36,761 nucleotides of DNA. Source: an uncultured Verrucomicrobiota bacterium. Its GTDB lineage: Bacteria; Verrucomicrobiota; Verrucomicrobiia; Opitutales; Opitutaceae. A program made the translations under genes and the position numbers. The stretch covers positions 1 to 36,761 of the forward strand of contig CAJCBL010000258.1 of assembly GCA_903960515.1 (NCBI GenBank), in the 5' to 3' direction. The notes beneath the pieces were generated by a model. It saw only the letters and a list, made by a program, of their open reading frames with translations, did no database searches and had not been told where the DNA came from. Position 1 is the stretch's first letter, and each line of letters starts with the position of its first letter. Shown piece after piece: positions 1 to 26,063 of this stretch.

Positions 1-1503
1 GCGGCCGCCTTTGGTGCGTGGTGCCTGTGGCGCGACGTCCGCAGCGCCCAAGGTTGGCCCAAACTGGCCCGCACTGCAGCCTGGGGCCTGGGCACCATGG
101 TCGTCCCCGTCGCCGCCGCCCTTTGGTGGGCGAGCTACACCGACGCCGCGAAGATCAACCACCCCTCCGCCTACGTCTTCACCTCACACAATCTCGCCTA
201 CAGCAACTATGGCACCTTCAGCCTGGCGACGCATTTCTCCGGTGAGGTCTGGCGCACCCTCTTCGCGCGCTGGCAGGAGTCGATCCTGCCCGCCTGGGCA
301 CTGGGGCTGATCGTGCTGCCGGGCATCGTATTTCTGCCCAAGGTCCGCTGGCACATCGGCGCCGCAGCCGCCCTCTTCATCGTGGCCCAGCAGCTCATCC
401 CCCTGGCCTACGCGTACCAGGATTACTACTTTTACGCCTGCGCCGCCTTCGCCACTGCCGCCATCGCCTTCACCCTCCACGGCCTGCTCGACTCCCGCCT
501 GCCTCGCTGGCTCTCGGCCCCACTTGTGCTCGTGCCCCTGGCGGCGCTGTTTGGCAACTACCGCACCGGCGCTTTGCGCCCGGCATCGTCGGGTTCCTGT
601 TACTACCACGACCAGGCCGTGCAGAGCCCCGGCGGCTCCGGCCTCACCGAGTCCCTCAAGTCCTTCACGCACCCGAAAGGCATCATCATCGTGGCCGGCT
701 CCGACTGGTGTCCGATCATCCCCTACTACGCCCAGCGCAAGGCCCTAATGATCCGCAGCGGGCTGGAAAACGACACCGCCTACCTTGAGCGCGCCCTGCG
801 CGACCTCGACGGCGAGGAAATCGCCGCCCTGGTGCTTTGCGGAGACCAGCGCAGCAACCTCGACCTGGTCCGCTTCCTCGCCGCGCGCATCGCAATCGAT
901 CCAAAGATCACCTACTCGCACCCCAGCGGCGACGTCTACATAAACCGCATCTACCGCGACACCGTCCTGCACCGGCTGAGCATCCACAACGGCTACCACC
1001 AGATCACCACCACAGCGCCTCCCCCGGCTCCGGCAACCGAGCCCGCCGGCCCCACCCCGATCCCCCCGCAGACCGCACGCACGTTCTTCGACATGGTCAG
1101 CCCGGCACCCTCCCACATGCGCGCCACCTTCGGCTTCGACGTGCTCGACTTCGAGGGCGCCCGGGCCCTCAACACCCACCCCGACAGCAATCTCTGGGTA
1201 CCGGTGCCCTCCACCGCCCGTCGGATTCGCTGGGAGTTTGGCATCCTGCCGGGGGCATACACCGGCGACAATGGCCGGACCAACGGGGTCGAATTCCTGG
1301 TGGACGCCGAGACCCCGGACGGCGGCCACCGCACGATCTTCCGCCGAGTGCTCACCCCCGACACCGTACAGACCGACAGGGGAGTCCAAGGCTCCGAGGT
1401 CCCATTTCTGCCACAGCCCGGCGAGGTGCTCGTCTTCCGCACCCGCAACAACGGCAACGCGGCCTTCGACTGGGCGGTCTGGCGAAGCATCGAGGTGCAA
1501 TGA
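1..1503 (+). CDS. GT-C-like integral membrane glycosyltransferase, 5'-truncated by window edge
   Basis: The frame is open from base 1, so the N-terminus lies outside the window; the first internal Met (position 97) is not the start. The visible 500 residues begin with several hydrophobic segments, including a conserved DYYF motif next to a transmembrane helix. An extracytoplasmic part follows with the motif SDWCPIIPYYAQRKALM. A beta-rich C-terminal domain (about 1210-1500) has the signature FGxxPGAYTG, TNGVEF, TDRGVQ and FDWAVW. The membrane part and the IPYY/RALM region match the minus-strand protein at 11622-13790, which has an N-terminal HEFRQ motif typical of GT39-like proteins, so the two are paralogues. 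The family normally transfers sugars from polyprenyl-phosphate donors on the outer face of the inner membrane; donor and acceptor are unknown here. It is the first visible gene of a same-strand cluster of five. Membrane protein: high confidence. Glycosyltransferase: inferred. Confidence 0.8.
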   Translation, partial: AAAFGAWCLWRDVRSAQGWPKLARTAAWGLGTMVVPVAAALWWASYTDAAKINHPSAYVFTSHNLAYSNYGTFSLATHFSGEVWRTLFARWQESILPAWALGLIVLPGIVFLPKVRWHIGAAAALFIVAQQLIPLAYAYQDYYFYACAAFATAAIAFTLHGLLDSRLPRWLSAPLVLVPLAALFGNYRTGALRPASSGSCYYHDQAVQSPGGSGLTESLKSFTHPKGIIIVAGSDWCPIIPYYAQRKALMIRSGLENDTAYLERALRDLDGEEIAALVLCGDQRSNLDLVRFLAARIAIDPKITYSHPSGDVYINRIYRDTVLHRLSIHNGYHQITTTAPPPAPATEPAGPTPIPPQTARTFFDMVSPAPSHMRATFGFDVLDFEGARALNTHPDSNLWVPVPSTARRIRWEFGILPGAYTGDNGRTNGVEFLVDAETPDGGHRTIFRRVLTPDTVQTDRGVQGSEVPFLPQPGEVLVFRTRNNGNAAFDWAVWRSIEVQ

Positions 1504-1584
1504 TCCCCCGCTCTTCAACCTCCGCAGCGGCATCCGGCCAACCCGCCCCCGGCGCGCCCCCGCGCAAGCCCCAGTTTTTGTGAC

Positions 1585-4434
1585 ATGACCGCGCCCCGCC
1601 GGCTCCTCCTCGCCCTGCTGCTGCTCGCCGTGTCCTTCGGGGTGCGCGCACCCTACCTCCAGCGCACCATCTGGAACATCGACGAGGGGATCACCATCAC
1701 CGCCAGCGAGCAGATCCTCGCCGGTGGCGTGCTTTACCGCGACGCCGCCGACCACCGCAACCCGCTCGTTCCCTACCTGAAGGCCGGCATCTTCGCCGTC
1801 TTCGGAGACTGGAACACCGCCGCGCTCCACTGCGTGCTCGCCGTCCTGCTGGGGCTCGGGGCGATAGCCCTCTGGCAGCTCGCCCGCCGGCTGGGCGACG
1901 AACGCACCGGCGTGGCCGCCGCCCTCGTATTCACCCTGCTCTGTTTCGCGCTCCCCGACGACGGGGATGCGATGGCCGCCCACACGGAGTGGTTTCTCAT
2001 CCTCTTCTCGCTCGCTGGATTCTGGGCGTTCGCCTGCGCGCTGGAGCGGCCCGGTTTCCTGCGCGGTATCGGCCCCGGCATGCTCTTTGGCCTGGCTCTG
2101 CTGTGCAAACAACCCGGACTGTTCGACCTGGGCACCTCGCTGGTGCTCGTGGCCCTGCTGCTCCTCTCCCGCCCCGGCCAGCGCGGGGCCCTGCTGCGCT
2201 TCGCCCTGGGCGAACTCGCCGGCCTCGCCCTGGTGCTCGGCGCCACCCTAGCCTACTTCGCCTACCACGGAGCCGCGGCCGATCTGCTCTACTACGCCTG
2301 GACCTACAACTCCACCATCTACGTACCCGCAATCCCCTTGCCCGCCCGCCTGGCGACGATGATCGAGCCTTTCCGCCTGGCCGCGCTGCACACTCCGGCC
2401 GTCCTCGTAGCCGGCCTGCTCGGGGCCTGCCTCCTGCTGGTGTCGGTGGGCCGGGGGCTGTGCAGGCGCCCCGCCCTTGTCTCCGTTCTTCCATGGCTGG
2501 CGCTGGGATGGTCCGCCGCCGGCATCCTCGCCGCGTCCCTTGGCGGGCGCGGATTCTCCCACTACAGCATCCAGGTTATCCCCGGGCTCAGCCTTGCCGC
2601 CGGCTGGCTGCTGGCCCGCGCCTGGGAGTGGTTCTCCGCCGGGCCGCAGCGTCGCCGTCACGCCGGTCTCGCGGTGCTGCTGCTCGCGCTGGCCGCCACC
2701 GGCTGGAGGCTGGCCGAGCGCTTCCGCGAGATCTCCCCGCGCGACAACAACGCCATCGAGCTCTGCCAGATCGTGCGCGACTTCACCCTCCCCCAGGAGC
2801 GCATCTTCGTGTGGGGCTTCGCCCCCGACTACTACGTCTACTGCCAGCGCCTGCCCAACACCCGTTTCCTCCATACGCTCTTCCTCACCGGCATGATCGC
2901 GTGGACCAACCTCGACCCGCTCACCGACACCTCCGCCACCGTCACCCCAGGGAGCTGGGAACGGCTGAGGGAGGATTTCCAACGCACCCCCGCTGCCATG
3001 ATCGTGGATACCGGTCCGGTGTGCGGCCACGCCAAGTACCCGCTGCGCGACCGCCCGCAGCTCTGGGGGATGATCACCCGTGAATACGCCGAGGTGGAGC
3101 CCCCCGTGCGCCATCCCCTGGGCCTGCGCTTCTACCGGCGCCTCGCCCCGGCGGAGTCCTCGCCACCGCCCCTCGGAGCCCTCGCCGACCCCACCGTGAG
3201 CTTGACTGTCGGTTACACCAACCAGTACCCGGCCATCCCCACGCTCACGGCGCGTGCACCCCGCGGCGCCACCCGGCTGGACCTCTACGCGGGAGGGCTG
3301 CTCTTGCGCACCCTCGCGCTGCCCGCCACCGGCCGCGACTGCGACGTCACCTTCTTTGCCCCCGTAGCCGAACGGCCGCCCGGGGCCACCGTGTTCCGTG
3401 CGGCATTGCACCAGCCCGACGGCGTCCGCCTGGGGCCGCCGGTTGAAATCCCCGCGGCGGCCGACCTGCTCCGCTCTCCCGCCGCTGCCGGCCCACCGCT
3501 GCGCCTCCGCGGCAAGGAGTATCCTCCCCTTGGGAGCGAGGCCCACCTCGGCCCGCCCACCCCGAGGACAACCCCGCCGGAAACCTGGCTCACCCACGCC
3601 ATCGCGAAACTCGTCTATGTGCGGCCGGCCGGCCTCAAGTCGCTAAGCTTCACCTACGGGATGGACGAACAGTCCTACTACGATACCGCCGCCAGCCCCG
3701 CCTCCGATGGCGTCGACTTTGTGGTCGGTTTCGAGCCCGCCACCGGCGACAGGACACGCCTCTTCTCCCGCCGCCTCGAACCCAAGGGCAACGGCGCCGA
3801 CCACGGTCCCCAAACCTCCGAGATCGTGTTCCCGGACTCCGCACCGGGGGCCATCGTGGTCCAGGTGCTGCCGGGCAGGAACGGCTCCGTGGCCAACGAC
3901 ACCGCCTACCTCGGCCCCCTCCTGGGCACAGCGGGGGACTTCGGCCCGCCGCTGCTGCACGGCTCCGTAGCGATCCCCGCCGAGGCGGTCGGCGCCAACC
4001 GCGCCCCGGTGATGACCTGCGACCCCGAGGGCAAATGGACCGCCCACTCGCCCTCGACAGTCAGCTACGAACTGCCGGCCTCAGCGCGGTCGCTAACCTT
4101 CGGCTACGGGCTGGAGCCCGCCAGCTACGACGGCAGCCAGGGCGGCCGCACCGACGGCATCAGCATCATAGTAACTGCCGAGCTGGCCGACGGCACCACC
4201 GCCACCCTCTTTGAGCGCAACCTCGACCCGGTCAACGCCGCCGCCGACCGTGGCCGGCAGACCGCGTGCATCGATATCTCGAGCACACAGGTGCGCCGCG
4301 TTACCCTCGCCATCGGCCCGGGCCCCCGCGACAACTACTCCTTCGACTGGAGCTACCTGGCCGACCTGCGCGCCTACGATGCGGCCCCGCTGCCCGGCCC
4401 CAACCAGCCCGCCACCGCCGCCCCGAGCCCATGA
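1585..4434 (+). CDS. GT39-like (PMT/ArnT fold) membrane glycosyltransferase with two C-terminal beta domains
   Basis: This 949-residue protein has TM1 at residues 6-22 followed by the acidic motif NIDEG (Asp33-Glu34), which matches the catalytic acidic motif in the first external loop of GT39/PMT-type GT-C enzymes. About ten hydrophobic segments reach residue 375. The extracytoplasmic half starts with FVWGFAPDYYVY (408-419), also seen in the next gene. It then carries an Ig-like stretch (535-620) and two copies of a beta-sandwich-like domain (about 680-780 and 830-931). The second copy has TDGISI, AADRGRQ, IGPGPRDN and FDWSYL. At 949 residues it is far longer than ArnT (about 550) because of these additions. 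It lies 81 bases after the previous gene and overlaps the next by ATGA, so translational coupling is likely. Expected role: transfer of sugars from a lipid-linked donor at the periplasmic face. The acceptor cannot be read from sequence. Confidence 0.85.
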   Translation: MTAPRRLLLALLLLAVSFGVRAPYLQRTIWNIDEGITITASEQILAGGVLYRDAADHRNPLVPYLKAGIFAVFGDWNTAALHCVLAVLLGLGAIALWQLARRLGDERTGVAAALVFTLLCFALPDDGDAMAAHTEWFLILFSLAGFWAFACALERPGFLRGIGPGMLFGLALLCKQPGLFDLGTSLVLVALLLLSRPGQRGALLRFALGELAGLALVLGATLAYFAYHGAAADLLYYAWTYNSTIYVPAIPLPARLATMIEPFRLAALHTPAVLVAGLLGACLLLVSVGRGLCRRPALVSVLPWLALGWSAAGILAASLGGRGFSHYSIQVIPGLSLAAGWLLARAWEWFSAGPQRRRHAGLAVLLLALAATGWRLAERFREISPRDNNAIELCQIVRDFTLPQERIFVWGFAPDYYVYCQRLPNTRFLHTLFLTGMIAWTNLDPLTDTSATVTPGSWERLREDFQRTPAAMIVDTGPVCGHAKYPLRDRPQLWGMITREYAEVEPPVRHPLGLRFYRRLAPAESSPPPLGALADPTVSLTVGYTNQYPAIPTLTARAPRGATRLDLYAGGLLLRTLALPATGRDCDVTFFAPVAERPPGATVFRAALHQPDGVRLGPPVEIPAAADLLRSPAAAGPPLRLRGKEYPPLGSEAHLGPPTPRTTPPETWLTHAIAKLVYVRPAGLKSLSFTYGMDEQSYYDTAASPASDGVDFVVGFEPATGDRTRLFSRRLEPKGNGADHGPQTSEIVFPDSAPGAIVVQVLPGRNGSVANDTAYLGPLLGTAGDFGPPLLHGSVAIPAEAVGANRAPVMTCDPEGKWTAHSPSTVSYELPASARSLTFGYGLEPASYDGSQGGRTDGISIIVTAELADGTTATLFERNLDPVNAAADRGRQTACIDISSTQVRRVTLAIGPGPRDNYSFDWSYLADLRAYDAAPLPGPNQPATAAPSP

Positions 4435-6875
4435 CCCGCCCCGCCATACCGCGCCCCTGTCTCCCGAAATCCATGCCAAAGCTCCGCCCGTCCCTCTTCC
4501 TGCTGCTCGCCGCACTTCTTGGCGCGGTCCTTTGGCTGCGCTGGCCTTCGCTCTCCGCCACACTCTGGAACGTGGACGAGGGTATCCACGCCGCCGTGGC
4601 CCGCACGCTGCTCGACGGCGGCACCCTCTACCGCGACGCCATCGACCAGCGCACCCCGCTCACCTACTACGCCGTGGCCGGCGTATTCGCTGCGGCGGGC
4701 GCCAACAACCTCTTCGCCGTGCGTCTGGTCCTCGCCGGCCTGATCGCGCTCACCGCCTTCGGCCTCTTTCTCGTGGGCAACCGCACCCGCGACAGCGCCA
4801 CCGGGCTCTGGGCCTCCGCGGTCTTCGTCGCCCTCTCGACCAACCTCCTGCCGGGCAGCGACGCCTTCGCCTTCCACACCGAGTGGTTCGCCATCCTTTT
4901 CACCACCTGGGCTGCATGGATTTTCTGGAGGCGGCAGTATCCGCTCTCCATGCGCGCCGCCGCCGGCACCGGAGCGCTGCTGGCCCTCGCATTCCTCTCG
5001 AAACAGCCCGCGCTGCTCGACTTCGCCCCTCCGGTCGCAGTTTGCCTCTGGCGCGCGCTCGCCGGCGACTGGCGAGCGAGCGACGCCGCCCGCTCGCTTG
5101 CCGGCCTGGCCTGCGGCTTCGCTGCGCCGGTGCTGCTCGCCCTTGCCTATTTCGGGGCGGCGGGAGCGCTGGGCGATCTCTCCTTCTACGCCTGGAGCTA
5201 CAATATCGATACCTACGGCCCGGAGATCAGCGCGCTCGACCGCTCCCTCTCCGCCCTGCTGCCCTTCCGGCTGCTCGCCCACGAGTATCCGGCGGTTCTG
5301 GTCGCCGGGCTCGCCGCCGCCGCCCTGGCGCTGTTGCGCCTCGTCCAGCTCCGCCCCACCCCCGAGGAACGCAGCGACAACTGCTGGCGCGTATTCCTGC
5401 TGGTGTGGTGCGCCTCCTCGCTCGCCGGCGCGGCGTCGGGCGGGCGTGGATTCGAGCACTACGCCATCCAGTGCCTGCCCGCCTTCTCGCTGGCCGCCGG
5501 CCTGGCGCTGGCCGGGCTCGGCGCCTGGGCTCGTGCCCAATGGCTGGAGTCGCACCGCCTGCCCGCCTGCGCCGCCGCAGCCGCGCTGGCCCTGGTCGCC
5601 GGCCAGCTCGGCTGGCACGCAGCCGGGGCGCGCCTCGCCGCCCTCCCGCCGGTGGACCCGGCCGACAGGGTTTCCACCTACGTGCGCGAACGCACCACTC
5701 CTGCCGACACCCTCTTTGTGTGGGGCTACAACCCCGACATCTACCTCTACGCCGACCGCCGCCCAGCCTCGCGTTTCGTCTACTGCTCGTTCCTCACCGG
5801 CCTGATCCCGTGGACCAACCTCGATCCCCAGAAGGACACCACCTACGCGATCGTGCCGGGCGCCATGGACACCCTGCTCGCCGAGCTGCAGTCCCACCGG
5901 CCCCCGTTCATCGTCGACTGCAGCGCCGGGACGCACCGCAACTTCGCCAAGTACCCGGTCTCCAAGTTCGCCGCGCTTGAGCAGCTGCTAGAGCGCGACT
6001 ACGCGGTGGTCGAGGCCGGGCGCTTCGTGCCGCAGGGTTTCCGCCTGCATCTGCTGCGCGACCGAGCCCGGCGCACTCCGCTTCCGCTGGCCGGCGGCCC
6101 CGCCGTGGCCGCCCCCTCGGCCCCGCAGCTCTTCGGCCGCGGCGCCGTGGAGCCCAAGCCCACCCCCTATCTGGTCGCCTGCACCGCCACCGACGGACGT
6201 CTCCAACGCCTGGAGCTCCTCGTAGACGGAGCTGTGGTGGACGGCGTGAGCGTGGCGCCCTGCGCGGATCTGCAGGTAGCGTTGATCGCCCCCTTCGAGC
6301 GACTGGGCGCCGGGGTCCACCGGCTCTGTGCCCGCGCCACCCGCGCCGACGGCTCCACTACCACAAGCGAAGAGAGCCCGGTCGACTGCTCTACCAACGC
6401 CCTCCCGGCCGACCGCCTCGCCGGCTTCCGCATCCCTATGGTGACGGCGGCGGTAGAGCCGCTCTCGGTGAGCGCCCCCTTCGGCCCGTCTGCACAACTC
6501 GAAGACGATTCGATGATCTACTTCGCCCATGCCCGGTCGGAGCTTGTCTATCCGCTCGACGGACACGCCCGCCGCCTGCGCGGCGGCTTCGGCCTGAGGC
6601 CGGCGGCCTTCGCCGCCAGCAACCCGGCGGCCACCGATGGCGCCAGTTTCCGCATCGCCCTGCTCTCGCCCGACGGTGCGCGCACCGTCCTGCTCGACCG
6701 GTTGATCTGCCCGCGCGATGTCGAGGCCGACCGCCCAGTGCAGCGTTTCGCCCTCCTGCTGCCCCGCCACCCCGCCGGCAGCCGGCTGGAGTTCACCATC
6801 GGGCCGGGCCCCGCCGACAATGCCGCCTGCGACTGGACTTTCTGGTCCGATCTCTCCATCGACTGTAACAAATAA
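4431..6875 (+). CDS. GT39-like membrane glycosyltransferase with one C-terminal beta domain
   Basis: A paralogue of the preceding gene, 814 residues. The chosen start is the ATG at 4431, whose ATGA overlaps the upstream stop; an in-frame ATG at 4473 (MPKLRPS) would also leave a short cytoplasmic tail before TM1 and cannot be excluded. An ATG further upstream at 4266 lies inside the previous gene and would add a proline/arginine-rich non-native stretch. The acidic motif NVDEG (Asp49-Glu50) follows TM1, then YRDAIDQRTPLTYY, close to the neighbour's YRDAADHRNPLVPY. Multiple TM segments follow. The external part has FVWGYNPDIYLYADRR and PWTNLDPQKDT, both conserved with the neighbour. The last 105 residues form one copy of the shared beta domain (TDGASF, EADRPVQ, IGPGPADN, CDWTFW). 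Probably the second of a pair of sugar transferases acting on the same lipid-linked pathway. Confidence 0.85.
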   Translation: MTRPAIPRPCLPKSMPKLRPSLFLLLAALLGAVLWLRWPSLSATLWNVDEGIHAAVARTLLDGGTLYRDAIDQRTPLTYYAVAGVFAAAGANNLFAVRLVLAGLIALTAFGLFLVGNRTRDSATGLWASAVFVALSTNLLPGSDAFAFHTEWFAILFTTWAAWIFWRRQYPLSMRAAAGTGALLALAFLSKQPALLDFAPPVAVCLWRALAGDWRASDAARSLAGLACGFAAPVLLALAYFGAAGALGDLSFYAWSYNIDTYGPEISALDRSLSALLPFRLLAHEYPAVLVAGLAAAALALLRLVQLRPTPEERSDNCWRVFLLVWCASSLAGAASGGRGFEHYAIQCLPAFSLAAGLALAGLGAWARAQWLESHRLPACAAAAALALVAGQLGWHAAGARLAALPPVDPADRVSTYVRERTTPADTLFVWGYNPDIYLYADRRPASRFVYCSFLTGLIPWTNLDPQKDTTYAIVPGAMDTLLAELQSHRPPFIVDCSAGTHRNFAKYPVSKFAALEQLLERDYAVVEAGRFVPQGFRLHLLRDRARRTPLPLAGGPAVAAPSAPQLFGRGAVEPKPTPYLVACTATDGRLQRLELLVDGAVVDGVSVAPCADLQVALIAPFERLGAGVHRLCARATRADGSTTTSEESPVDCSTNALPADRLAGFRIPMVTAAVEPLSVSAPFGPSAQLEDDSMIYFAHARSELVYPLDGHARRLRGGFGLRPAAFAASNPAATDGASFRIALLSPDGARTVLLDRLICPRDVEADRPVQRFALLLPRHPAGSRLEFTIGPGPADNAACDWTFWSDLSIDCNK

Positions 6876-6907
6876 GTACCGGCGGCCGCTCCGCCTCCAT
6901 TTTCCCA

Positions 6908-9280
6908 ATGCCCGATAGTCCCATGACCGAAAGCACACCCTCCATCCCGGCCGAGCAGCCCAACCGGCTCGGCGACTTCCTGCTCTGGCTGTTGATCGGC
7001 CTCGCAATCTTCACCCTCCCCCGCCCTCCCGCCCTGGAGCTGGACGCCTCCTGGCGCATGACCCTGGGCTACGCATTCACAAAGAACCTGCAGTGGGGCA
7101 CGGACATCGTATTCACCTACGGCCCGCTCGGCTTCCTGATGGGCAAGACCTACTGGGGCCAGCTGTTCTGGGAGATGGTCGGCTGGCAGGTATTCCAGGC
7201 GATGGTGTTCAGTTTCCTCCTGCTCTCCGAGGGCAAGCGCCTGCGCGGTGTGTCGCGCTTTTTCTACTTCGCCTTCGTGCTGCTGCTCGGAGTGATTTAC
7301 GAGGACGCCCTGCACATGATCGCCATCGCCCTGCTCGGCTGGCGCTTGCTCCGGCGCGCCGACGAGGAAACCCCGCGCGCCCAGCTCTGGGCGGCAGCCC
7401 TGCTCGCGGTGCTCGGGGCGGTGAAGTTCACCAACCTGCTTTTCGCCGCCACCGCAGTGGCCCTGGCCGCCGCACTCGCCCTGTACCGGCGCGCCCCCCG
7501 CGCAGCCGCGCTCAACGCCGGGGCCTTCGCCGGCACCTACCTGGCGGTCTGGCTGCTCTGCGGCCAGAATCCGCTCAACCTGCCCGCCTACGTCATCGGC
7601 AGCCTGCAAGTAAGCAGCGGCTACACAGACGGCATGAGCATCCCCACCCCGGCCGACGCCCTCGGCTCCGGCCTGCTCGTGGCCGCTCTGCTCGCCACCT
7701 GCCTCGTGCTGCATGTGCGCGACAGCCGGCGACGCGCCTTCGCCCTGGCCAACGCCACCCTCTGCGCGGCCTTCCTCTTCCTGAATTGGAAACACGGATT
7801 CGTGCGCGCCGACGGCCACATGATCGGCTTCTTCATCTGCGCCCTGCTGGCCATCGTCGCCTTCCCCTCCCTCTTCGCCGACGCCCCCGCCGGCCGCTGG
7901 GCCCGCCAGCTCATCCTGCTGGCCGCCGCGCTGCTCTGCCTTGTGGGGTTCAACCAGGCTCTGCCCGGCAGTCTCCGCGGCACCGGCAACCAGCTCATGG
8001 ACCATGTGTGGGGCCGCGTGGCCACCGTTGCCCACTGGGAGGAATTCCGCCAGGGCCTGCGCGCCCAGATGCACGCACAGCGCAAGGACAGCCAACTCGA
8101 CCAGGTGCATGCCGCCGTGGGCACGGCCACCGTAGACGTGATCGGCCACCTCCAGGCCGTGGCCCTGTTCAACAAACTCAACTACCACCCGCGGCCCGTT
8201 TTCCAGAGCTACAGCGCCTACAGCGCCCCACTCTCCCGCCGCAACCTCGACTTCTACGGCTCGAAAGACGCCCCTGAATACGTGCTGCTCGCCATAGAGA
8301 CCCTCGACGGTCGCCTGCCCACCATGGACGACTCGCTCCTGCTCAACTATCTCCCGCACGCCTACGACTACGTGCTCACCGAGAAGAGCTGGCAGCTCTG
8401 GCGCCGCCGCCCCGACGCCCCCTCCCCGGCCGCCGTGGCCCCGCGCCGCCTGAGCACCAGCAAACTCGCCTTGGGCGAAGCGCTCGAAGTCTCCGAACGC
8501 GGAGCACAGCCCACGTGGATCAGCGTCGACCTCACTCCCTCGCTCTTCGGGCGAATCCGCAAGTTCCTCTACAAGCAGCCCCTCGTGCAGCTCGTCGTGG
8601 AGGATACCGCCGGCCAGACCACCCGCTACCGCATGCCCCCCGAGGAGGGCCGCGCCGGCTTCATCATCAACCCGCTCATCGAGGACGTCGCCGACTTCGT
8701 AAATGCCGCCGGGCTTACCCCCAAGCGCCGGGTGGCTCGGGTTCGCGTTGAAGTAGAAGGCGGCGACCGCTTCTTCTTCCGCCCGCGCGCAGAGGTGGGC
8801 CTCTTCGCCCTCACCGCCTCCGAGGCGGGAGTGCGCGCGCAGGCGGTGAAAGAAAGGGCGGTATTCGCCGTCTTCACCGTAATGCCGTCCGCCGTCCATA
8901 CGTACGCCCCCCCCAGCCCCGCCGTTATCGACGGGATCTCCTGCCTGGTGCTCCACGCCCCCAGCGACCTCGAATTCACGGTCCCCGCCGGCGCCACCAC
9001 CATGGTGGGCCGCTTCGGGTACCCGCCCAGTGCCTACACCGGCGACGCCAAGACCAACGGCGCCGACTTCCGCGTCGTCTGGAACGACGGCACCACCGAG
9101 CACGTGCTCTTCCATCAATACCTCGACCCGCGCAAGACCCCCGCCGACCGCGGACTGCACTCCTTCGCCGCCCCGCTCGCCGGCGTGACCGGCGGCCGGG
9201 TACACCTGGTCATCGACGCCGGCCCCGGCGGCGACAACGGCTGGGACTGGACCGCATGGACCGGCATCGAAATCCGTTGA
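6908..9280 (+). CDS. Polytopic membrane protein with FTYGPLGF motif and C-terminal beta domain, function unknown
   Basis: A 790-residue protein. A short cytoplasmic tail leads to TM1 (about 23-38), then an external loop with DASWR (46-50) and DIVFTYGPLGFLM (66-78). This signature occurs in a family of uncharacterised bacterial membrane proteins resembling GT-C enzymes in layout. About ten hydrophobic segments run to residue 350, followed by an extracytoplasmic region. The C-terminal 95 residues are another copy of the beta domain shared with the other cluster genes (FGYPPSAYTG, TNGADF, PADRGLH, WDWTAW). ATG at 6908 and ATG at 6923 are both possible starts; neither has a clear Shine-Dalgarno sequence. 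It begins 32 bases after the preceding stop and overlaps the next gene by 25 bases. A role in glycan transfer or export is suggested only by company and by the shared domain. Confidence 0.8.
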   Translation: MPDSPMTESTPSIPAEQPNRLGDFLLWLLIGLAIFTLPRPPALELDASWRMTLGYAFTKNLQWGTDIVFTYGPLGFLMGKTYWGQLFWEMVGWQVFQAMVFSFLLLSEGKRLRGVSRFFYFAFVLLLGVIYEDALHMIAIALLGWRLLRRADEETPRAQLWAAALLAVLGAVKFTNLLFAATAVALAAALALYRRAPRAAALNAGAFAGTYLAVWLLCGQNPLNLPAYVIGSLQVSSGYTDGMSIPTPADALGSGLLVAALLATCLVLHVRDSRRRAFALANATLCAAFLFLNWKHGFVRADGHMIGFFICALLAIVAFPSLFADAPAGRWARQLILLAAALLCLVGFNQALPGSLRGTGNQLMDHVWGRVATVAHWEEFRQGLRAQMHAQRKDSQLDQVHAAVGTATVDVIGHLQAVALFNKLNYHPRPVFQSYSAYSAPLSRRNLDFYGSKDAPEYVLLAIETLDGRLPTMDDSLLLNYLPHAYDYVLTEKSWQLWRRRPDAPSPAAVAPRRLSTSKLALGEALEVSERGAQPTWISVDLTPSLFGRIRKFLYKQPLVQLVVEDTAGQTTRYRMPPEEGRAGFIINPLIEDVADFVNAAGLTPKRRVARVRVEVEGGDRFFFRPRAEVGLFALTASEAGVRAQAVKERAVFAVFTVMPSAVHTYAPPSPAVIDGISCLVLHAPSDLEFTVPAGATTMVGRFGYPPSAYTGDAKTNGADFRVVWNDGTTEHVLFHQYLDPRKTPADRGLHSFAAPLAGVTGGRVHLVIDAGPGGDNGWDWTAWTGIEIR

Positions 9281-11514
9281 ACCCCACCGAGCGCAGCACC
9301 GGCCGCCTGTGGTGGTGGCTGGCGATGGGCGGAGCCGCGCTTATGCTCGCCGGCCGCCTGTGGCTGATCCGCGAGTACGGCACGGCACTGCCCTTCCGCG
9401 ACCAGTGGCGCTCCACCGCCCAGGATCTGCTCGCCCCGTGGTTGGCCGGCACCCTCGGGTGGCGCGACTTCCTCGCGCCGATGAACGACCACTGCCTGGC
9501 GCTCACCCGCCTGCTCTCGTTCGGCCTGGTGCGCGCCAACGGCCAATGGAACAATTTGCTGGAGACGACGGTGGACATCCTCCTGCTCGTCCCCCCCATC
9601 GCCCTCACGCTGCGCACCATCGCCCCCGCCCTGGGCCGCGGGCCCGCAGTCGCCTGGACGCTCTTCTCGGGCCTGTTGCTGGCGTTGCCCATAACCTGGG
9701 AGAACACGCTTTGGGGCGTGCAGTCGCTGGTCTTCTTCCAGATCGCCCTCTCGGTGGTCTACCTCTGGGCGGTAGCCACCCAGACTCGTTTCTGCTCGGC
9801 GTGGTGGCTGGGCCAGGCCGCCGGGGGCCTGGCGCTGCTCACCCAGCAGTCCGCCGTGCTCGCCCCCGTAGCCGCCGTACTGCTGCTGCTCTGGCGCCTG
9901 TGGCGGGAAACCGACACCCGCCGCAACGCCGCCGCCGGCCTTGCCGTAGCCGCGCTGTGGATCGCGCTATATTTCTGCCTGGCGCCCAACTTCAGCGTCA
10001 CTGCCGACATGCGCGCCGACTCCTGGCGCATCGCCCTGCAGGTGTGCCTGCGCCAGCTCGCCTGGCCGCTACCTCACCCCGCCTGGGCCTTCCTGATGTA
10101 TTTGCCGTGGCTGTGGTTCGCCTCCGACCGGCTGCTACGCCGCCAACTCGCCCCCGCCGATGCCTTCCTGCTCGCGCTCGCCCTCTGGGTGGGCGCCCAG
10201 GCCGCCGCCATCGGCACAGGCCGCGGCGGCGAAACCACCGCCTTCGTCTCCCGCTACTGCGATTTCCTGCTGCTGGGGGTGATCGTCAATGCCGCCTGCC
10301 TCGCCCGCCTCTGGCAGGGTGCCGCCCGCCCGGCCCGTATCGCCTTGGCGCTGCTCGGCGTGGCGTGGCTGGGCTTCGCCGCGCCCGGCATCCGGCACGA
10401 GACCGTGGCCAGCCATTCCGGGCACATGCTCGCCCACCGCCGCCAGACCAACGCCGACAACATCGCCGCCGTGCGCCACTTCATAACCACAGGCGACACC
10501 TCCGTGCTCGCCCGTGACCGTATCGGCGAAACCCTCCATCCGTATCCGCCCGCCCTTATCTCCCTGCTCTCCGATCCTCGTCTCCGCGCGCTGCTCCCGC
10601 CCGAGACCGGCGCCCCCGAGGCCCGCCCCGACCAGGGCCGCCTCGGCTGGTTCGCCCGCAGCCTGCCCGCAGCCTGGCCGCTGTTCCTGGCCGCCGGGCT
10701 GGGGCTGGTGGGCTTCGCCGCCTGGCGCCTGCGCCGCGCGCCGGTGCAGGAACCGGCCCTGGTGCTCGAAGCGTGGACACTGCGCGGCGCCGCCCTCGCG
10801 GCCGCGCTGGCCGCCGCCGGCGGCGGCCTCGCCTGGTGCGCCTGGCCGAACCCCCTCACGTTCGAACCGCACGAACGCTGGTCCGCCGTCTTCGAGCCTG
10901 CGCTGGACTACGTGGAGCTCCTCGATCTCGCCTTCACCCGCGAAAGCGCGGGCCCGCGCCTCATGCCGGGGGCCACTGCCGGCGCGGTGGCGCTGAACAA
11001 TCCTGCACCCTCGCTGTTCTGGCACGGCACCCTCCTGCCCGACCTCTCCTTCACCGCCACCCTCGCAGCGCAACCCGCGCCGCTGCGCCACCGCTATCTC
11101 GTGGTGCCCTACACTGGCTGGCCCAACTGGAACGGCAACGGCCTGCGCTGGCGTTTCCAGAATCCGGCGACCGGGGAGGAGCAATGGATCGAATACATGG
11201 GAGGCAACCCCAGCGGGGAGTACGACCTCTGGACAGTCGACGCCGCCGCCTACCGCGGCTGGCAGGCCACGCTCTATGTCTTCGACGGCCGCACCGACGA
11301 CCATGGCTGGCTTGGCGTAGCCCGGCCCGCCGCCACCGACAATCCCGCCTTCGGCGCCCAGTGGAGGGCCTCACTCAGGGGCGAGCGCGCCGAGTCCACC
11401 CACCGCACCGTGGCCGCCGCCACCGCTATCGCCGCCGCCGCCGCGCTGCTCCTGGCCCTGCTCGCCTGGCGCCGCCGGGGCCGCCCCCACTTCGCGGAGA
11501 CCGGCCCTGCGTAA
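9256..11514 (+). CDS. Polytopic membrane protein with FRDQW/NDH motifs, probable GT-C-like, function unknown
   Basis: A 752-residue protein. TM1 (about 19-37) is followed by LPFRDQW (45-51) and, after a Pro-Trp-containing stretch, PMNDHCLALTRLL (75-87). This resembles an uncharacterised family with DQW...P...N-D/E-H...TRL motifs in the first external loop, laid out like GT-C glycosyltransferases. About ten TM helices follow. Unlike its neighbours it lacks their repeated beta domain. Instead it has a different external domain (about 530-700, with GWPNWNGNGLRW and WIEYMGGNPSGEYD) and a final TM helix followed by RRRGR, so the C-terminus is probably cytoplasmic. ATG 9256 overlaps the upstream gene by 25 bases; a TTG at 9277 (TTGA overlap) is an alternative start. 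It closes the plus-strand cluster, with a hairpin just downstream. Confidence 0.8.
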   Translation: MDRHRNPLNPTERSTGRLWWWLAMGGAALMLAGRLWLIREYGTALPFRDQWRSTAQDLLAPWLAGTLGWRDFLAPMNDHCLALTRLLSFGLVRANGQWNNLLETTVDILLLVPPIALTLRTIAPALGRGPAVAWTLFSGLLLALPITWENTLWGVQSLVFFQIALSVVYLWAVATQTRFCSAWWLGQAAGGLALLTQQSAVLAPVAAVLLLLWRLWRETDTRRNAAAGLAVAALWIALYFCLAPNFSVTADMRADSWRIALQVCLRQLAWPLPHPAWAFLMYLPWLWFASDRLLRRQLAPADAFLLALALWVGAQAAAIGTGRGGETTAFVSRYCDFLLLGVIVNAACLARLWQGAARPARIALALLGVAWLGFAAPGIRHETVASHSGHMLAHRRQTNADNIAAVRHFITTGDTSVLARDRIGETLHPYPPALISLLSDPRLRALLPPETGAPEARPDQGRLGWFARSLPAAWPLFLAAGLGLVGFAAWRLRRAPVQEPALVLEAWTLRGAALAAALAAAGGGLAWCAWPNPLTFEPHERWSAVFEPALDYVELLDLAFTRESAGPRLMPGATAGAVALNNPAPSLFWHGTLLPDLSFTATLAAQPAPLRHRYLVVPYTGWPNWNGNGLRWRFQNPATGEEQWIEYMGGNPSGEYDLWTVDAAAYRGWQATLYVFDGRTDDHGWLGVARPAATDNPAFGAQWRASLRGERAESTHRTVAAATAIAAAAALLLALLAWRRRGRPHFAETGPA

Positions 11515-11621: not shown

Positions 11622-13790
11622 CTAAGGGGCCGGGGTTTCCGGCCGGGGCGCCGCGTCCACCTCGCCACCGAGCCGCGCGAGCACCCCGGCCCGCGCGAGC
11701 CTTGGTACGTAGACCGCAAAGTCCTCCCGCTGCACCACGGGCCGCTCGTCGAAATCATAACCCTGCACCATCCGCAGCAGCAACGCCGTGTTTCCAGGCC
11801 GGTTACCCCCGAGGACCAGTGCCCCGATCCTCTCGCCCTTCAGCGCATCGAGCGCCCTCCCGATCATCACCGGTTCGGAGTCGGTGCCCGCGCGCAACAT
11901 GAGCGCCCGGCGACGGCTGTAGAAGGGCACGGCCGAGTTCCAGTCCCTTGCCGTGATCACCAGCACGTCGTCGGGGCCGGTGATCTCGCGCAGCGTCGCC
12001 GCAAGTTTGCGCCCGGCGTTGTCGGTCTCCCTTTGGCTCGGCAGATAGCTGCTCCGGTACATCGATACCTGCGCCAGCAGCAGGGCAAACAACACCGCCA
12101 ATGCGGCCCCGCGGGTCCGCCGGTATTCGCGGGCAGCAGCCAGCATCAACCCGACCGCAGCAAGCAACAGCACCGCCGTAGCCATGAAGTAGTAGTCATG
12201 CGCCTCATAGAGCCGGGGGAAAACCACCGGCGTGGCCACAAACAACGCCAGCGCTCCGAGGGCCCACGCCCTCAGGCGGTACGGGGCCAGCACCGCCGCC
12301 ACAACCAGCGGCACCAGGGCGAAGGGGGGCAGGATGCCTTGCGACACATGCGTCCAGTAGTGCTGCCAGCATGCCGGATTGAACCGGTCGTCCACGATGC
12401 CGAAATGCCACGTCATCAGCGCGCCGGAGCGGAACCCCTGGGCGCAGCCATTGGCAGCCTTGGTGGTGTCCGCAAAATGCAACCACCATAGCGTGGCCGC
12501 CCCGGGCGCCGCGAGCACCCCGGCCGCCCAACCCACCAGCCGTGCTTGCGCGCCGCGATCGCTGCGCGCACCCCACAACCACCACAACGTCCACACACCG
12601 GTAGGCACAAGGAAGATGATCAGGGTCGTCACCTTCACCAGGCCGACGCCGATGCCGGCCACCGCCGCCACCGCCGCCCAGCCGAGGCTTCGCCGCTCCA
12701 CCGCCGCCACAAATCCATGAAGGAACCACAGGGCAAACATCAGCGCCATCGTCTCGATCAGGAACGCCCGCCCATAGAAGGCGTAGAGCGGACAAGTCAG
12801 CACGAGCCCGAGCACGATCCAGCGCCCCGGCCGGGCCAGCCCGATCCGCCCCAGCAGCAGCCACAACGCCCCCAGGGCGAGGTAGAGGCACCCGGCGCTG
12901 GCCAGCCGCCCGGATTGAACCAACGGATACCCAGTGGCGTTGCTCAGCCCGACCACCGTCCATTGGTACAGCGGGAACTCGAAGGGCACCGACCACGGCT
13001 TGCCCAGGACCGGCGTGGGATAAGCCAGCGAGAAATTGCCCTCCACCTGGATGAAGTGGGCCGAGAGCGCCGTCTGCGCCTGCCGGAATTCGTGCCCGGC
13101 CAAGTATGGGCTTCCCCAATTCAGCATCAAAGCAGCCAGGTGCACCGCCGCCGCCATCGCGAACCACACCGCCACGGCTCGGTCGCCGCCAGGGCCGGCC
13201 GGCGCGGGCGCACAAGGGAGCTCGCCGCCGCTCGTGCGGCGCTGCGCCCGCATCACCGCCCACAGGAACACCAACCCCGCACCAGCGGCGCTGAGCACCA
13301 TCAGGCGGAACACCCAGCTCCACGGGCTCACAAAGGAGGTCTCGATCACTATGCGCCGCAGCTCCAGGGCCTGCGGCAGGAAATCCGGCAGGTCGATACG
13401 CAGCACCTTGGAGTTGTCCAGCTGCGCCGTTACCAGGACCACGCCTGGGCGATGGGTCACCTGTGTCTCGACCAGCGAGGGATTCAGCCGCTCCCGGTCA
13501 AACGGGCTCTGGAACATGTAGAAGGAGCCTTCCGCCTCGGCATACTCCCCTCCGAACTCGAAGGTCACCCGGCGCAACGGGCTAGCCTCCACTGGCACCT
13601 CCACCCAGCCATACGGGTCGGCACCGGTGCGGGTGAGCGTGCGGGTGGCCGCATCCCACTGCATGTCGTTCAAGTAGGGGAACTGCACCTCCGCCCCGGG
13701 AATCGTCACCACGGCCTGATTGCGCCGCAAACAAAAGAGGGTGGCGGCCAGGGCCAGCAAGACCGCTGCGACGATATGGATTCTTCTCAT
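11622..13790 (-). CDS. GT-C-like (GT39-type) membrane protein with N-terminal extracytoplasmic beta domain
   Basis: A 722-residue protein read from ATG 13790 (MRRIHIV). The in-frame ATG at 13832 would put a proline-rich stretch before the signal anchor and is less likely. One TM (7-22) is followed by an external beta-rich region (about 30-155), a second TM (160-180), then a loop with AGHEFRQAQT (231-240), which resembles the acidic/arginine motif after TM1 in GT39 proteins. Many TM helices follow. The C-terminal external part has VPFYSRRRALMLRAG and IGALVLGGNRPGNTA, which align with IPYYAQRKALMIRSG and IAALVLCGDQRSN in the truncated gene at 1-1503, showing common descent; this one lacks that gene's C-terminal beta domain and has an N-terminal one instead. 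It converges on the plus-strand cluster and is probably a lipid-linked sugar transferase of the envelope. Confidence 0.8.
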   Translation of the reverse strand: MRRIHIVAAVLLALAATLFCLRRNQAVVTIPGAEVQFPYLNDMQWDAATRTLTRTGADPYGWVEVPVEASPLRRVTFEFGGEYAEAEGSFYMFQSPFDRERLNPSLVETQVTHRPGVVLVTAQLDNSKVLRIDLPDFLPQALELRRIVIETSFVSPWSWVFRLMVLSAAGAGLVFLWAVMRAQRRTSGGELPCAPAPAGPGGDRAVAVWFAMAAAVHLAALMLNWGSPYLAGHEFRQAQTALSAHFIQVEGNFSLAYPTPVLGKPWSVPFEFPLYQWTVVGLSNATGYPLVQSGRLASAGCLYLALGALWLLLGRIGLARPGRWIVLGLVLTCPLYAFYGRAFLIETMALMFALWFLHGFVAAVERRSLGWAAVAAVAGIGVGLVKVTTLIIFLVPTGVWTLWWLWGARSDRGAQARLVGWAAGVLAAPGAATLWWLHFADTTKAANGCAQGFRSGALMTWHFGIVDDRFNPACWQHYWTHVSQGILPPFALVPLVVAAVLAPYRLRAWALGALALFVATPVVFPRLYEAHDYYFMATAVLLLAAVGLMLAAAREYRRTRGAALAVLFALLLAQVSMYRSSYLPSQRETDNAGRKLAATLREITGPDDVLVITARDWNSAVPFYSRRRALMLRAGTDSEPVMIGRALDALKGERIGALVLGGNRPGNTALLLRMVQGYDFDERPVVQREDFAVYVPRLARAGVLARLGGEVDAAPRPETPAP

Positions 13791-13891
13791 TGGGAATCCC
13801 GGATCAGGCCGGCAGGGGCGAAAAAGGTCCACATCCGTTCCGGCGCCGCAGGCCGCCCCGGGCGCACCGCCCGAGGCGTCTCTTTAACTCA

Positions 13892-16118: not shown

Positions 16119-19100
16119 ATGAAAACCCCCAATACAAGCCCCCGCGCCGGCGCAGCCGGCCCGACCACTCCGCGCCTCGGCCGCCGTCTGGCCGCGCTCG
16201 CCAGTGTCGCCGTCACCGCGCTTCTGATGCTGGCGTGCTCGCCCACCTCCGCCCTCGCCCAGGCCGCGGCCATGGCAGTCTCCGTATCCAACGAAACCCC
16301 CAATAGCTACAACTGCGACGTCTACCTCTGGACCGACTCCACCGGCCACCAGCGCAGCGCCGCCCTCTCGCGCAACAACGCCGCCGACCCCGGCGGCTCC
16401 CGCGGCGGGGTGCTCTACCAGTACCGCTTCACCCCGGCAGGCGCCGCCACCGAGCGCGTGGTCACCGGCACGGGATCCCACGGCTACAACGGCTGGGGCT
16501 ATGTGGTGAACCACTACGGCAACTCGGCCTTCGTATCCACGGGCACCACCGGCACCTACAGCCGCCCCTTCACCGGCCGCCACCACGCCATCCACCAGTT
16601 CCGGCTCACCTACCCCATCAACGGCATCTCGGTCACCGCCACCATCCACTGGTACTTCGCCACCGGCCAGGACAACCCGGTCTACGCCATCACCTACGAC
16701 ACCAGCGCCGCCGGCCCCGGCGGCATCACCGGCGTAACCGTGGACTCCCGCGCCCCCTACGGCGACATGGAGTTTGGCGGCGACGGCGCCAGCCCGAACG
16801 TCTCCGGCGTGGCCTGGGGCGACAAATACAAGTTCTACACCCGCGACGAGCCGCTCACCCCCCAGAGCCGTTGGGACTACACCCAGCCCAACACCGTCCC
16901 CTACACCCGGATGTGGATCACCGGCCCCGACGCCGAGATGGGCGCCGTGCAGACCCTCAACTGGCTCCAGCACAACGCCGGCGGCTCCTGGTTCTCCACC
17001 AACTGGGGACACACCTCCGAGAACCGGGTCGTGGGCGACGGCACCACCTTCGGCGCCTGGATGCTGCCCACCAACTGGCAATGGCCCTACCAGCTCAACC
17101 AATACGAAATGATGGACAACACCAGCCCCACAGCCAGCAAGCGCTGCGCCTGGGGCGTGCCCTTCGGGGCGGTGGGTGCCACCACCTACGACGGCTACGG
17201 CTACGAAAACCAATACAGCGGGCACCCCTACCAGAGCTACTCGGTGGCCGCCGTCATCGGCCGCCACAGCACGGCCGACGTCACCGCCCAGACCACCCGC
17301 ACCGAGCGCGTACTCGCCGCCACCCTCACCGCCAACACCGGCACTCTCGCAACCTCGGGCCCCGGCGGCGCCGGCCGGACCGACTCGGTCGCCTATGCGA
17401 AAGCCGGCTACAACGCCACCTACGGTGTCTACGAGCTCGCCGCCAACGCCTCGGGCGCCTTCAGCGCCACTCTCGCCTCATCAAGCGCGATCAAGAACCC
17501 CACCTTCCGCATCCGCGGCCTCGGCGGCATCCCCGCCCAGCTCAGCCTCGACGGCACCGCCCTCGCCGCCGACCAGGGCTACTATGCCTCCTACGACTCC
17601 GCCACCCAGTCGCTGTGGCTCACCGTAGCCACCGACTGGAACGGCAGCCACACCCTCGCCTCCGGCGCGGGCGTGCCGCCCGCCGTCACCATCTCGGCGA
17701 CACCCTCTTCCACCACCCTGGTGCCCGGGGCCTCAGCCTCGTTCACCGCCTCCGTTTCCAACGCCGCAAACACCGCCGTCACCTGGGCGGTGGTCGAGAC
17801 CGGCGGCGGCACCATCACTGCGGCGGGCGTCTACACAGCCCCGGCCACCGTCGGCACCTACCACGTGCGCGCCACCAGCGTGGCCGACCCGACCAAGTCC
17901 GCCACAGCCACCGTAGCTGTCGCCCTCGCGCCGCCCTCGGTCACCAGTTTCCAAGCCTCCCCGTCGGTCATTCTCGCCGGCCAGACCACAACCCTCTCCT
18001 GGTCCACCGCCAACGCCACCACGTTGAGCATCTCCCCCTCCATCGGCACGGTGACGGGCACCAGCCGAGTGGTGACACCCGCCGCCAACACCGTCTACAC
18101 GCTCACCGCCACCGGTCCCGGCGGCACGGCCACCGCCACCGCAGGCGTCGCCGTCCGAGCCTCCACTACGCCAACAAACTTCGACTACGTCTACCGCTCC
18201 GGGCTCCAGGGCCCCTGGGCCGACAGCGGCTGGGGAGCCACCGTCAACTTCGCCGGCACCGCCCCCGGCCGCGCCGGCACCGCCATCGATGTCCACATCC
18301 CCAGCGCCTGGATGGGGCTCTCCCTGGCCGACATCGGCCCCTCCTGGACTGCCACGTACCACTTCATCAGCACAGTGGCCACGATCGAGTTCGACCTCTA
18401 CATCGAGCCCGACTCCACCGGCATCGAAAACGTGCTCTTCGTGCTGGGCGACGGATCGAAGACCGCCGACCAGCCCAAGCTGATCGACTACATCCCGGGC
18501 TGGGCCACCATGACCACCGCCCAGCGCACCGGCCACTGGTTCCACGTAGTCGTCGACCCCTCCTCGCTCCACGCGACCTTCCCCAGCTTCTACAACTTCG
18601 TCTTCTTCAAGATGACGGATACGGCCGTGAACCCGCACTTCCGCCTGGCCGAGGTGCGCCTGGGGAGCTTCGCCGACCCCGTGCCTCCCTCCATCACCCT
18701 GGGCACCACTGCCGTAGACTACGACCAGCTCACCCTACCGTTCACCACAAGCGAGTCCGCCATCTACCGCATAGAGTACGGCTACGGAAATTACAGCCAG
18801 ACGCTCACCGGCAGCCCCACAGCCTGGGCCACCAGCCACACCGCCGTACTCACCTCGCTCACCCGAGGGGCCACCCTGCAGTACCGCATCGTCGCCATCG
18901 ACCCCACGGGTAACCAAGGCCTGCTCACGGGCGCCGCCGCCATCTCCGACCCGGCCCCCCCCACCACCGCCACAGTCACCATCACCGCCGACCCCGCCAA
19001 CACCCACCCGATCTCCCCCTGGATCTACGGCGCCAACTCCAACCACGGCTACTCCAGCATCGTTCGCAACCTCACCCTCAACCGCCAGGGCGGCAACCGC

Positions 19101-20906: not shown

Positions 20907-21005
20907 TAGCGCCTGCTCCGGTACAGCACACCCTGTGCGCCCCCGCGCGGGATGCCCCCGGGGAATGCGTCCCTCCTCGGCGCCGCAGGCGGCGCTCATG
21001 AATAC

Positions 21006-21045
21006 AGGCCGGCCGCCCGTGGGGGGGCGGCCGGCCTTTTGTTTT
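21006..21045 (+). terminator. Strong intrinsic (Rho-independent) terminator after the GH44 gene
   Basis: A perfect 13-bp GC-rich stem (AGGCCGGCCGCCC at 21006-21018 and GGGCGGCCGGCCT at 21025-21037) with a 6-base loop is followed by TTTTGTTTT. This is the only hairpin in the window with a proper T tract, so the GH44 gene is probably its own transcription unit. Confidence 0.85.
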
Positions 21046-21161
21046 CCGCGGCCGGCCTCCTGCCGGAGCTCCGCCCCGCCGGCCCCTGCAGGGCCCGGAT
21101 CGACAGTAGTTTTACAGTACGCAGTATTGCTGGGGCCATCGCGCCCGTCACGCTCCGGTGC

Positions 21162-23863: not shown

Positions 23864-23888
23864 ACCGCGCCCAGCCCTAACCATCATT

Positions 23889-23985
23889 CGTAGAAGCGTG
23901 CTTGCACGCGATTCTGAGTGTTTTGCGTAGGAGCGTGCTTGCCACGCGATTCAGAGCGTGGATCGCGTGCAAGCACGCTCTTACG
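23889..23985. repeat. Triple palindromic repeat unit (two direct, one inverted copy)
   Basis: Two direct copies of a roughly 30-base unit built on GTAGGAGCGTGCTTGCACGC (23889-23918 with one change, 23926-23956 with a one-base insertion) are followed by an inverted copy (23962-23985). Each unit holds an internal palindrome around GCGTGC/GCACGC, and copy 3 can pair with copies 1 or 2. It looks like a REP/BIME element. The same arrangement recurs at 28073-28168, and the stop codon and following roughly 20 bases are also shared. Confidence 0.8.
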
Positions 23986-24059
23986 ACGAGCAAGCGCCCG
24001 GCCCCGCAAGATCAGGAAAATATTTCGCAGGCCTGGCTCCCCCCATAGCCCCCGGCCCG

Positions 24060-24200
24060 GCCATCCTGCCTTCTTCTCTAAGCCGTCGGCCTTCCGTCGG
24101 CCTTCAGCCTTAGGTCCACCGCCCTTCCGCGCCTTCAGCCTTCAGCCTTCCGCCTTCCGCCCCGGTCCTCCGCCTCCGCCCCTTCCCCAACGCCACTCGC
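24060..24200 (+). repeat. Pyrimidine-rich degenerate repeat array upstream of the beta-helix gene
   Basis: Repeated short units such as CCTTCAGCCTT, CCTTCCGCCTT and TCCTCCGCC fill about 140 bases and run almost to the ATG at 24210. The plus strand is nearly free of purine runs. The same unit vocabulary appears at 28335-28420 and 35605-35740, each ahead of another secreted-protein gene. No promoter or Shine-Dalgarno sequence can be distinguished inside it. The preceding stretch from 23986 (containing AAAATATTTCGCAGGC) is matched by one at 35555-35605. Confidence 0.7.
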
Positions 24201-24209
24201 GCACGCCCC

Positions 24210-25964: not shown

Positions 25965-26033
25965 ACGGCGATCACCCGCCGGCTGCCCCACGGTCCTGCC
26001 TTCTCCACTCCTCCCTACGCCTTCCGCGAAAGC

Positions 26034-26063
26034 GCCGCCCGCCGCTTCCTGCGGCTGCGCGTA
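26034..26063 (+). pseudogene. Vestigial end of a shared C-terminal tail (AARRFLRLRV)
   Basis: Seventy bases after the stop of the beta-helix gene, ten codons read AARRFLRLRV, the exact ending of the shared tail, with nothing of the domain before them and no gene of their own. The DNA closely matches the tail ends of neighbouring genes, so this is probably the scar of a lost or partly copied gene. Confidence 0.65.

Follow-up and report, generated by a model that had tools for sequence, protein, structure and literature searches.

Four consecutive genes at the start of contig C258 (CAJCBL010000258.1), from an uncultured bacterium of the Opitutaceae (Verrucomicrobiota), encode membrane proteins that resemble GT-C glycosyltransferases and end in a shared beta domain of about 130 residues, present in five copies. 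The contig, 36,761 bases long, is referred to below as the window; the genome to which it belongs is fragmented into 379 contigs. Modelling predicts for the domain the fold of a carbohydrate-binding module (CBM) of the CBM51/NPCBM type. Membrane families are labelled f0, f1 and so on, and genomes, contigs and loci carry handles beginning with G, C and L. The four genes and their domains are as follows:

1..1503, + strand: GT-C-like membrane protein of family f0 with one C-terminal NPCBM-like domain (open reading frame, its 5' end cut by the contig start)
1111..1500, + strand: NPCBM-like domain copy A (profile match 5e-42, alignment A2)
1585..4434, + strand: GT-C-like membrane protein of family f2 with a PMT_2 match (Pfam) and two C-terminal NPCBM-like domains
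3529..3936, + strand: NPCBM-like domain copy B1 (alignment, profile match)
3982..4383, + strand: NPCBM-like domain copy B2 (alignment, profile match)
4431..6875, + strand: GT-C-like membrane protein of family f2 with one C-terminal NPCBM-like domain, its PMT_2 match below cut-off
6462..6869, + strand: NPCBM-like domain copy C (alignment, profile match)
6908..9280, + strand: GT-C membrane protein of family f1 with a C-terminal NPCBM-like domain (AlphaFold2, Foldseek)
8888..9277, + strand: NPCBM-like domain copy D, the copy modelled alone (AlphaFold2, CBM51 matches)

An earlier note on this DNA had proposed that the five C-terminal segments are homologous and that their membrane parts belong to at least three families. 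Both proposals held: all ten pairs of segments match by BLASTP (E 4e-19 to 4e-5) and align over 143 columns, six of them invariant, and the carriers fall into f0 (1-1503, whose best match is the f0 member L046|5331-7568 at 52.7% identity, E 2.4e-90), f2 (1585-4434 and 4431-6875) and f1 (6908-9280). The description of the domain itself required amendment. FGxxPxxY, taken as its start, lies some 40-45 residues inside it in the alignment, and copy B2, previously delimited as residues 826-931 of the 1585-4434 protein, extends from about 800 to 933, so that the domain begins around 26 residues earlier. The motifs described as common to all copies are real but not universal among the five: DRG becomes DHG in B1 and DRP in C, with the following Q replaced by H in D; the DW motif reads D-T in B1, and the last W of the closing N-x-x-x-DW-x-x-W is missing from B1 and B2; and the 'LDP' position reads LTP (A), LEP (B1), LDP (B2), ICP (C) and LDP (D). 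A wider alignment (A2) takes in 52 copies from this genome and nine relatives, which share 16-68% identity with copy D; at least 90% of them keep the same residue at each of four positions (G, P, D and W).

The likeness to NPCBM-type sandwiches, first suggested from the letters alone, was pursued by structure prediction and fold search on copy D. AlphaFold2, given the 52 copies, returned a confident all-beta jelly roll of ten strands (predicted local distance difference test, pLDDT, 95.5; predicted template modelling score, pTM, 0.89), with CBM51 modules as its nearest neighbours. The top Foldseek match was CBM51-2 of ZmpB (E 3.8e-5), and the six best rows (E 3.8e-5 to 8.1e-5) comprised CBM51 of Clostridium perfringens ZmpB and GH95 and the Akkermansia entry 8pvs, followed by CBM6 entries. 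VIA-align filled its 11 best rows with ten CBM51 entries and one Akkermansia enzyme, 8pvs (Z 11.6-13.7 over 115-119 residues, root-mean-square deviation 2.2-2.6), the twelfth row falling to Z 10.4. Profile comparison agreed: hhalign of the A2 profile against 13 canonical NPCBM domains, themselves PF08305 matches from relatives and from this genome, gave a probability of 96 (E 3.6e-9, 107 columns), against a probability of 2 for a control, the CBM6 of the window, represented by a single sequence. PF08305 matches 7 of the 52 copies at E<=10, the best at 7.8e-6. Sequence searches of the PDB with domain profiles A1 and A2 and with one soluble relative gave nothing meaningful; the link to CBM51 is drawn from structure and profile comparison. 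On these models the domain is a CBM51-fold, NPCBM-like subfamily that is not filed as a member of PF08305. As a separate observation, some NPCBM domains elsewhere look circularly permuted, their PF08305 matches being split so that profile positions of about 85-136 precede those of about 2-86 (G020:C11:1199809-1200210, G053 C52 and C40, G037 C142, G039 C78 and G006:C1:3883334-3883729).

Evidence for the nature of the membrane parts differs between families. The 1585-4434 protein matches Pfam PMT_2 (PF13231) at 1.8e-10, with 41.7 bits against a cut-off of 26.1, and the 4431-6875 protein reaches 19.5 bits, under that cut-off; neither the 1-1503 nor the 6908-9280 protein matches PMT_2, the latter (f1) matches no Pfam or NCBIfam model, and at E<=0.1 Pfam matches none of the representatives of f1 and f3-f6. 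Fold comparison, which covered f1 through the 6908-9280 protein, used a full-length AlphaFold2 model built on 44 sequences (pLDDT 90.6, pTM 0.83), in which about 11 transmembrane (TM) helices are followed by a membrane-proximal soluble part (residues ~500-645) and, lastly, the NPCBM-like domain. Eight Foldseek matches fell under 0.001, including AftD (4.4e-6, first), AftA (2.9e-4) and EmbB (5.0e-4, eighth), the others being CBM51 entries and one VIP3B. In VIA-align the membrane part matched yeast ALG3 (Z 11.5, 282 residues), AftA (Z 9.1, 405) and AglB (Z 9.0, 342), scores in a range, Z 9-11.5, that helical proteins can reach by arrangement alone, and the tail matched CBM51 entries at Z 12.6-14.6. 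The GT-C fold proposed earlier is thus supported for the 6908-9280 protein by model, Foldseek and VIA-align, alongside the PMT_2 match of the 1585-4434 protein. Between membrane families, hhalign values of 96 (f0-f2), 72 (f1-f0), 39 (f3-f2), 1.4 (f4-f2) and 0.4 (f1-f2) mean that sequence comparison does not establish a shared ancestor for f1, f3 and f4 and the rest. Separately, an f3 protein (L097:9749-11416) weakly matches a terminal beta-(1->2)-arabinofuranosyltransferase model of NCBIfam (8e-5, 20.9 bits, cut-off 1050).

Topology and conserved residues are in keeping with such enzymes. The 11 or so TM helices of the 6908-9280 protein, chosen among the helices of the model, fall within the GT-C range of 7-13, and the first is followed by an extracytoplasmic loop, as in that superfamily. 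The inside loops of this topology hold eight K/R and its four short outside loops one, a distribution which, by the positive-inside rule, would place the C-terminal part, and with it the predicted module, on the periplasmic side. In f1 at least 90% of 44 sequences keep Asp46, which comes after the first helix, and acidic residues recur in f3 (Glu43-Asp44, invariant in 10), f4 (Asp49, invariant in four) and f0 (Glu76, at least 90% in 21), their first-loop position judged by eye except in f1; the f2 motif WNVDE is a majority motif outside the list of positions kept in at least 90%. A conserved acidic residue in the first loop would be a candidate for catalysis.

Carriage of the domain is concentrated in one family. 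Of the eight copies in the window's own genome, five lie in the window, and among 57 genomes the domain was found in 10 (this one included), all within the 37 Opitutaceae, and in none of the 20 from other families; the highest number was 17 copies in one genome. A sample of 387 genomes of the phylum, with up to 11 candidates scored in each, gave strong matches in at least 15 members of the family and at least one genome from a different family in the same class, and weak matches in at least 21 others. Fifteen frames were sampled from 14 of these 21; some are truncated at locus ends, and all have 0-1 predicted TM helices. Of seven scanned, two match NPCBM and others CBM9, DUF6259 or DUF5696; the weak matches were consequently set aside as ordinary secreted NPCBM-like proteins. 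Among true carriers the placement is uniform: in 83 of 83 with distinct C-termini the last copy ends no more than 23 residues from the C-terminus, with one copy in 71, two in seven and three in five. Six carrier frames have fewer than three predicted TM helices, five of them cut by a locus boundary, contig start or stop; in the 697-residue frame L049|4364-6454 the hydropathy rule finds one. BLASTP (E 1e-3) divides the membrane parts of 80 hosts into groups of 32, 17, 16, 10, 4 and 1, the singleton being a protein with one predicted TM helix from another family of the phylum, and as judged by sequence comparison the carriers represent at least five GT-C-like families unlinked by BLASTP.

Two arrangements seen among the carriers may be recorded here. 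Carriers of family f0 often occur as a convergent pair, one on each strand, with their domain-coding ends close together (L015, L052, L096, L105, L109 and L112). At L110:2330-5086 (G397 C6) a single in-frame stop separates an f2 membrane part from three NPCBM-like copies, and may be a sequencing error, a pseudogene or a case of readthrough.

How the domain came to be distributed over these families was addressed with a tree of 98 copies, built on a short alignment with many forks unresolved. Eight membrane-family labels require 16 changes on it (minimum 7, shuffled mean 55), and the domain has therefore been inherited mostly with its enzyme. The earlier note's picture of a domain shuffled among families consequently survives in part: the tree mostly tracks the membrane family, with a few supported exchanges, and well-supported exchange is seen between f2 and f3, where copies two and three of f2 triples cluster with copies one and two of f3 doubles (support 100/96 and 100/92). 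Family f1 offers a closer view. Of 51 members, 35 have a single domain, seven have two and nine have none; presence and absence require at least six changes, of which starred branches in a quickly built tree (from which L136 and L143, both cut by contig ends, were omitted) force four, and the double form makes up one side of a branch. Because the nine domain-less frames terminate at stop codons inside the locus and have no domain frame downstream, absence in f1 is no contig artefact. Among the f0, f2 and f3 members found, the domain is kept in 35 of 37, 25 of 26 and 14 of 14 respectively, rates that are biased upward since hosts other than f1 were collected mostly via the domain.

Gene neighbourhood places the carriers beside one another. 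In the main f1 clade of 24 members the upstream neighbour is a domain-bearing f2 in 19 and another domain-bearing family in three, the remaining two having no upstream gene or a short frame without the domain; no domain-bearing neighbour was seen beside any of the nine domain-less f1 members, one of which has just 177 bases upstream. Downstream of f1, a homolog of the next gene in the window (gene E) was detected by BLASTP in 12 of the 24, window included, with short flanks in many. This gene and a second f0 gene of the window are:

9256..11514, + strand: gene E, multi-TM protein without the domain and without a Pfam match, a homolog often lying 3' of family f1
11622..13832, - strand: family f0 paralog without the NPCBM-like domain (49.6% identity over 510 residues to an f0 member; no profile match)

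By eye, the paralog has around 150 soluble-looking residues between its first helix and its GT-C-like core. For relatives, 39 neighbour proteins from seven genomes were scanned, hand-picked among long frames and not a random sample (17 from G213, two from G318, one from G021 and 19 from G169, G016, G373 and G397 together). GT2 or GT4 families are matched by 22, many of them GT2-GT4 fusions of 1,300-1,400 residues, and epimerase, RmlD, GDP-mannose dehydratase or nucleotidyl-transferase families by seven; the rest are two FecR proteins, two TonB receptors, a methyltransferase, a YfhO protein and four without a match. The window's own genome has one GtrA gene and two Wzt_C genes, on other contigs. 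A relative of the window's f1 protein, 62% identical to it, is encoded on JAHFTC010000074.1 (Opitutaceae bacterium nzgw611).

Taken together, these proteins are probably GT-C glycosyltransferases acting on the periplasmic side, with a CBM51-like tail that would bind the acceptor polysaccharide, an interpretation that leans on analogy with EmbC and with GT136 of Citrobacter. Under this scheme, divergent modules of CBM51/NPCBM fold, as predicted, are fused to the C-terminus of a GT-C core which, as GT-C biology suggests, would take a sugar from a polyprenyl-phosphate donor and transfer it onto a surface polysaccharide, the product of cytoplasmic glycosyltransferases such as those encoded nearby in relatives. 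The tail would keep the polymer near the active site, or the enzyme on the polymer, and tandem copies could add avidity. In these precedents, tryptophan substitutions at two C-terminal sites of EmbC inhibit activity and weaken acceptor binding (PMC3044687), and the CBM of Citrobacter youngae O1 ORF12 (GT136) binds the unmodified O-polysaccharide (PMC11127046).

A further step, that unlinked GT-C families carry the module as they act on the same or a similar glycan, so that several enzymes may share one acceptor, is favoured by the clustering of the genes and by exchange between families. It is weakened by the tendency of domains to track their own enzyme family, by genomes in which f1 is the sole carrier (G449, G479 and G493, one copy each) and by the coincidence of domain absence with absence of f0 and f2: eight domain-less f1 members come from genomes without any copy at E<=1e-5 and the ninth from G456, which has a single copy, and neither f0 nor f2 was found in any of 12 genomes (the nine with a domain-less f1 and the three with a single copy) in a search run without a positive control. 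An all-or-none pattern across families within each genome was considered as independent support for a shared acceptor and rejected, as it reflects presence of the cluster. The stronger formulation, in which a CBM51-like docking tag of the Opitutaceae is exchanged between unlinked GT-C enzymes of one surface-polysaccharide cluster, varies in copy number and gathers many decorating enzymes on a single acceptor polymer, is offered as a tentative and rather doubtful proposal.

It is worth setting out what weighs against acceptor-binding GT-C enzymes as such. Firstly, the module can be done without: nine intact f1 members and the f0 paralog of the window lack it, and the CBM of ORF12 was dispensable for activity as tested, its role on GT136 being called unclear by the authors (PMC11127046). 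Secondly, as to structure, topology and family assignment, besides the caution attached to the membrane-part Z scores above, the Foldseek TM-scores of the f1 model for GT-C matches are moderate (0.22-0.25), the long first outside loop carries four K/R while the N-terminal tail has none, copy D with 16.2 bits stays under the curated PF08305 cut-off of 23.9, and a PF08305 search of this genome (E<=0.1) recovers a single NPCBM, encoded on another contig, but misses all eight copies of the present domain. Thirdly, the polysaccharide context comes from relatives: the window proteins scanned include no GT2/GT4 or sugar-nucleotide gene, and the two neighbours scanned from G318 are a TonB receptor and a protein without a match.

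The alternative that best survives is a tail that binds no sugar, serving as a structural or assembly domain that packs against the GT-C core or an adjacent enzyme from the cluster in a multi-enzyme complex. A domain tree that follows membrane family fits co-evolution with the enzyme, f2 and f1 carriers adjoin in most of the main f1 clade, and EmbA and EmbB act as a complex, to judge from structure entry titles; however, the nearest folds are glycan-binding modules, and one to three tandem copies with repeated gain and loss in f1 suit an add-on better than an interface, which leaves this explanation unlikely. The PMT_2 match and the secreted proteins with a common tail downstream in the window would also accommodate PMT-like protein O-glycosyltransferases whose tail recognises proteins that already bear glycans, in rough analogy with the MIR domains of eukaryotic PMTs. 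This seems improbable given polysaccharide-type GT2/GT4 and sugar-nucleotide genes as neighbours in relatives, polysaccharide arabinosyltransferases among the structural neighbours of f1 and the match of f3 to an AftB-type model, weak and far under its cut-off though it is. That nothing functional is shared, the module being a lineage habit, a neutral addition to the C-terminus propagated through duplication and recombination within the cluster, would explain the f2-f3 exchange of a tandem pair and the presence changes within f1, but is very improbable given four residues kept in at least 90% of such divergent copies and near-constant carriage in f0, f2 and f3, though most of those members were found via the domain. 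Acceptor binding by the CBM51-like tail is retained as the preferred reading.

The remainder of the window contains a second shared C-terminal module. Six large consecutive genes at 16119-35464 end in a common tail of about 100 residues closing on RRFLR(V/L)R(V/L), their bodies being, in order, GH44-like, weakly esterase-like, beta-helix, fn3, CBM6/deacetylase-like and beta-helix.

No description of a CBM51/NPCBM-like tail on GT-C enzymes was seen in a search of the open-access literature that worked mainly from listings of papers, nor any paper there bringing together NPCBM domains, glycosyltransferases and Verrucomicrobiota. Natural paralogs with zero, one, two or three copies provide material for testing how a CBM contributes to a GT-C enzyme, and the set draws attention to glycosyltransferase-like membrane families that Pfam does not match and to a subfamily of CBM51-like domains under the Pfam cut-off. 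Each half of these proteins has known counterparts. The 1585-4434 protein exceeds the cut-off for PMT_2 GT-C enzymes (PF13231) and the f0 and f2 profiles are related, whereas the representatives of f1 and f3-f6 stand apart from Pfam. The tail shares its fold and profile similarity with CBM51/NPCBM (PF08305) of C. perfringens GH95, GH98 and ZmpB, but those modules sit on hydrolases and a peptidase, and these on membrane glycosyltransferase-like proteins; compared with canonical NPCBM, the LDP...ADRG stretch aligns only in part, and the score of copy D lies under the Pfam threshold. As a whole, an acceptor-binding CBM on a GT-C enzyme is a known design in a few other bacteria, namely in mycobacterial arabinan synthesis and Citrobacter O-antigen. 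ORF12 of C. youngae O1 is likewise a GT-C enzyme with a C-terminal periplasmic CBM in a polysaccharide locus, and differs in having an identified donor pathway (PMC11127046). EmbC, EmbA, EmbB and AftD of Mycobacterium similarly join a GT-C core to an extracytoplasmic beta-sandwich CBM; here, by contrast, the module is CBM51/NPCBM-like and borne by at least five GT-C-like families unlinked by BLASTP, extending the CBM-bearing GT-C design to an enzyme set of the Opitutaceae with up to 17 copies per genome.

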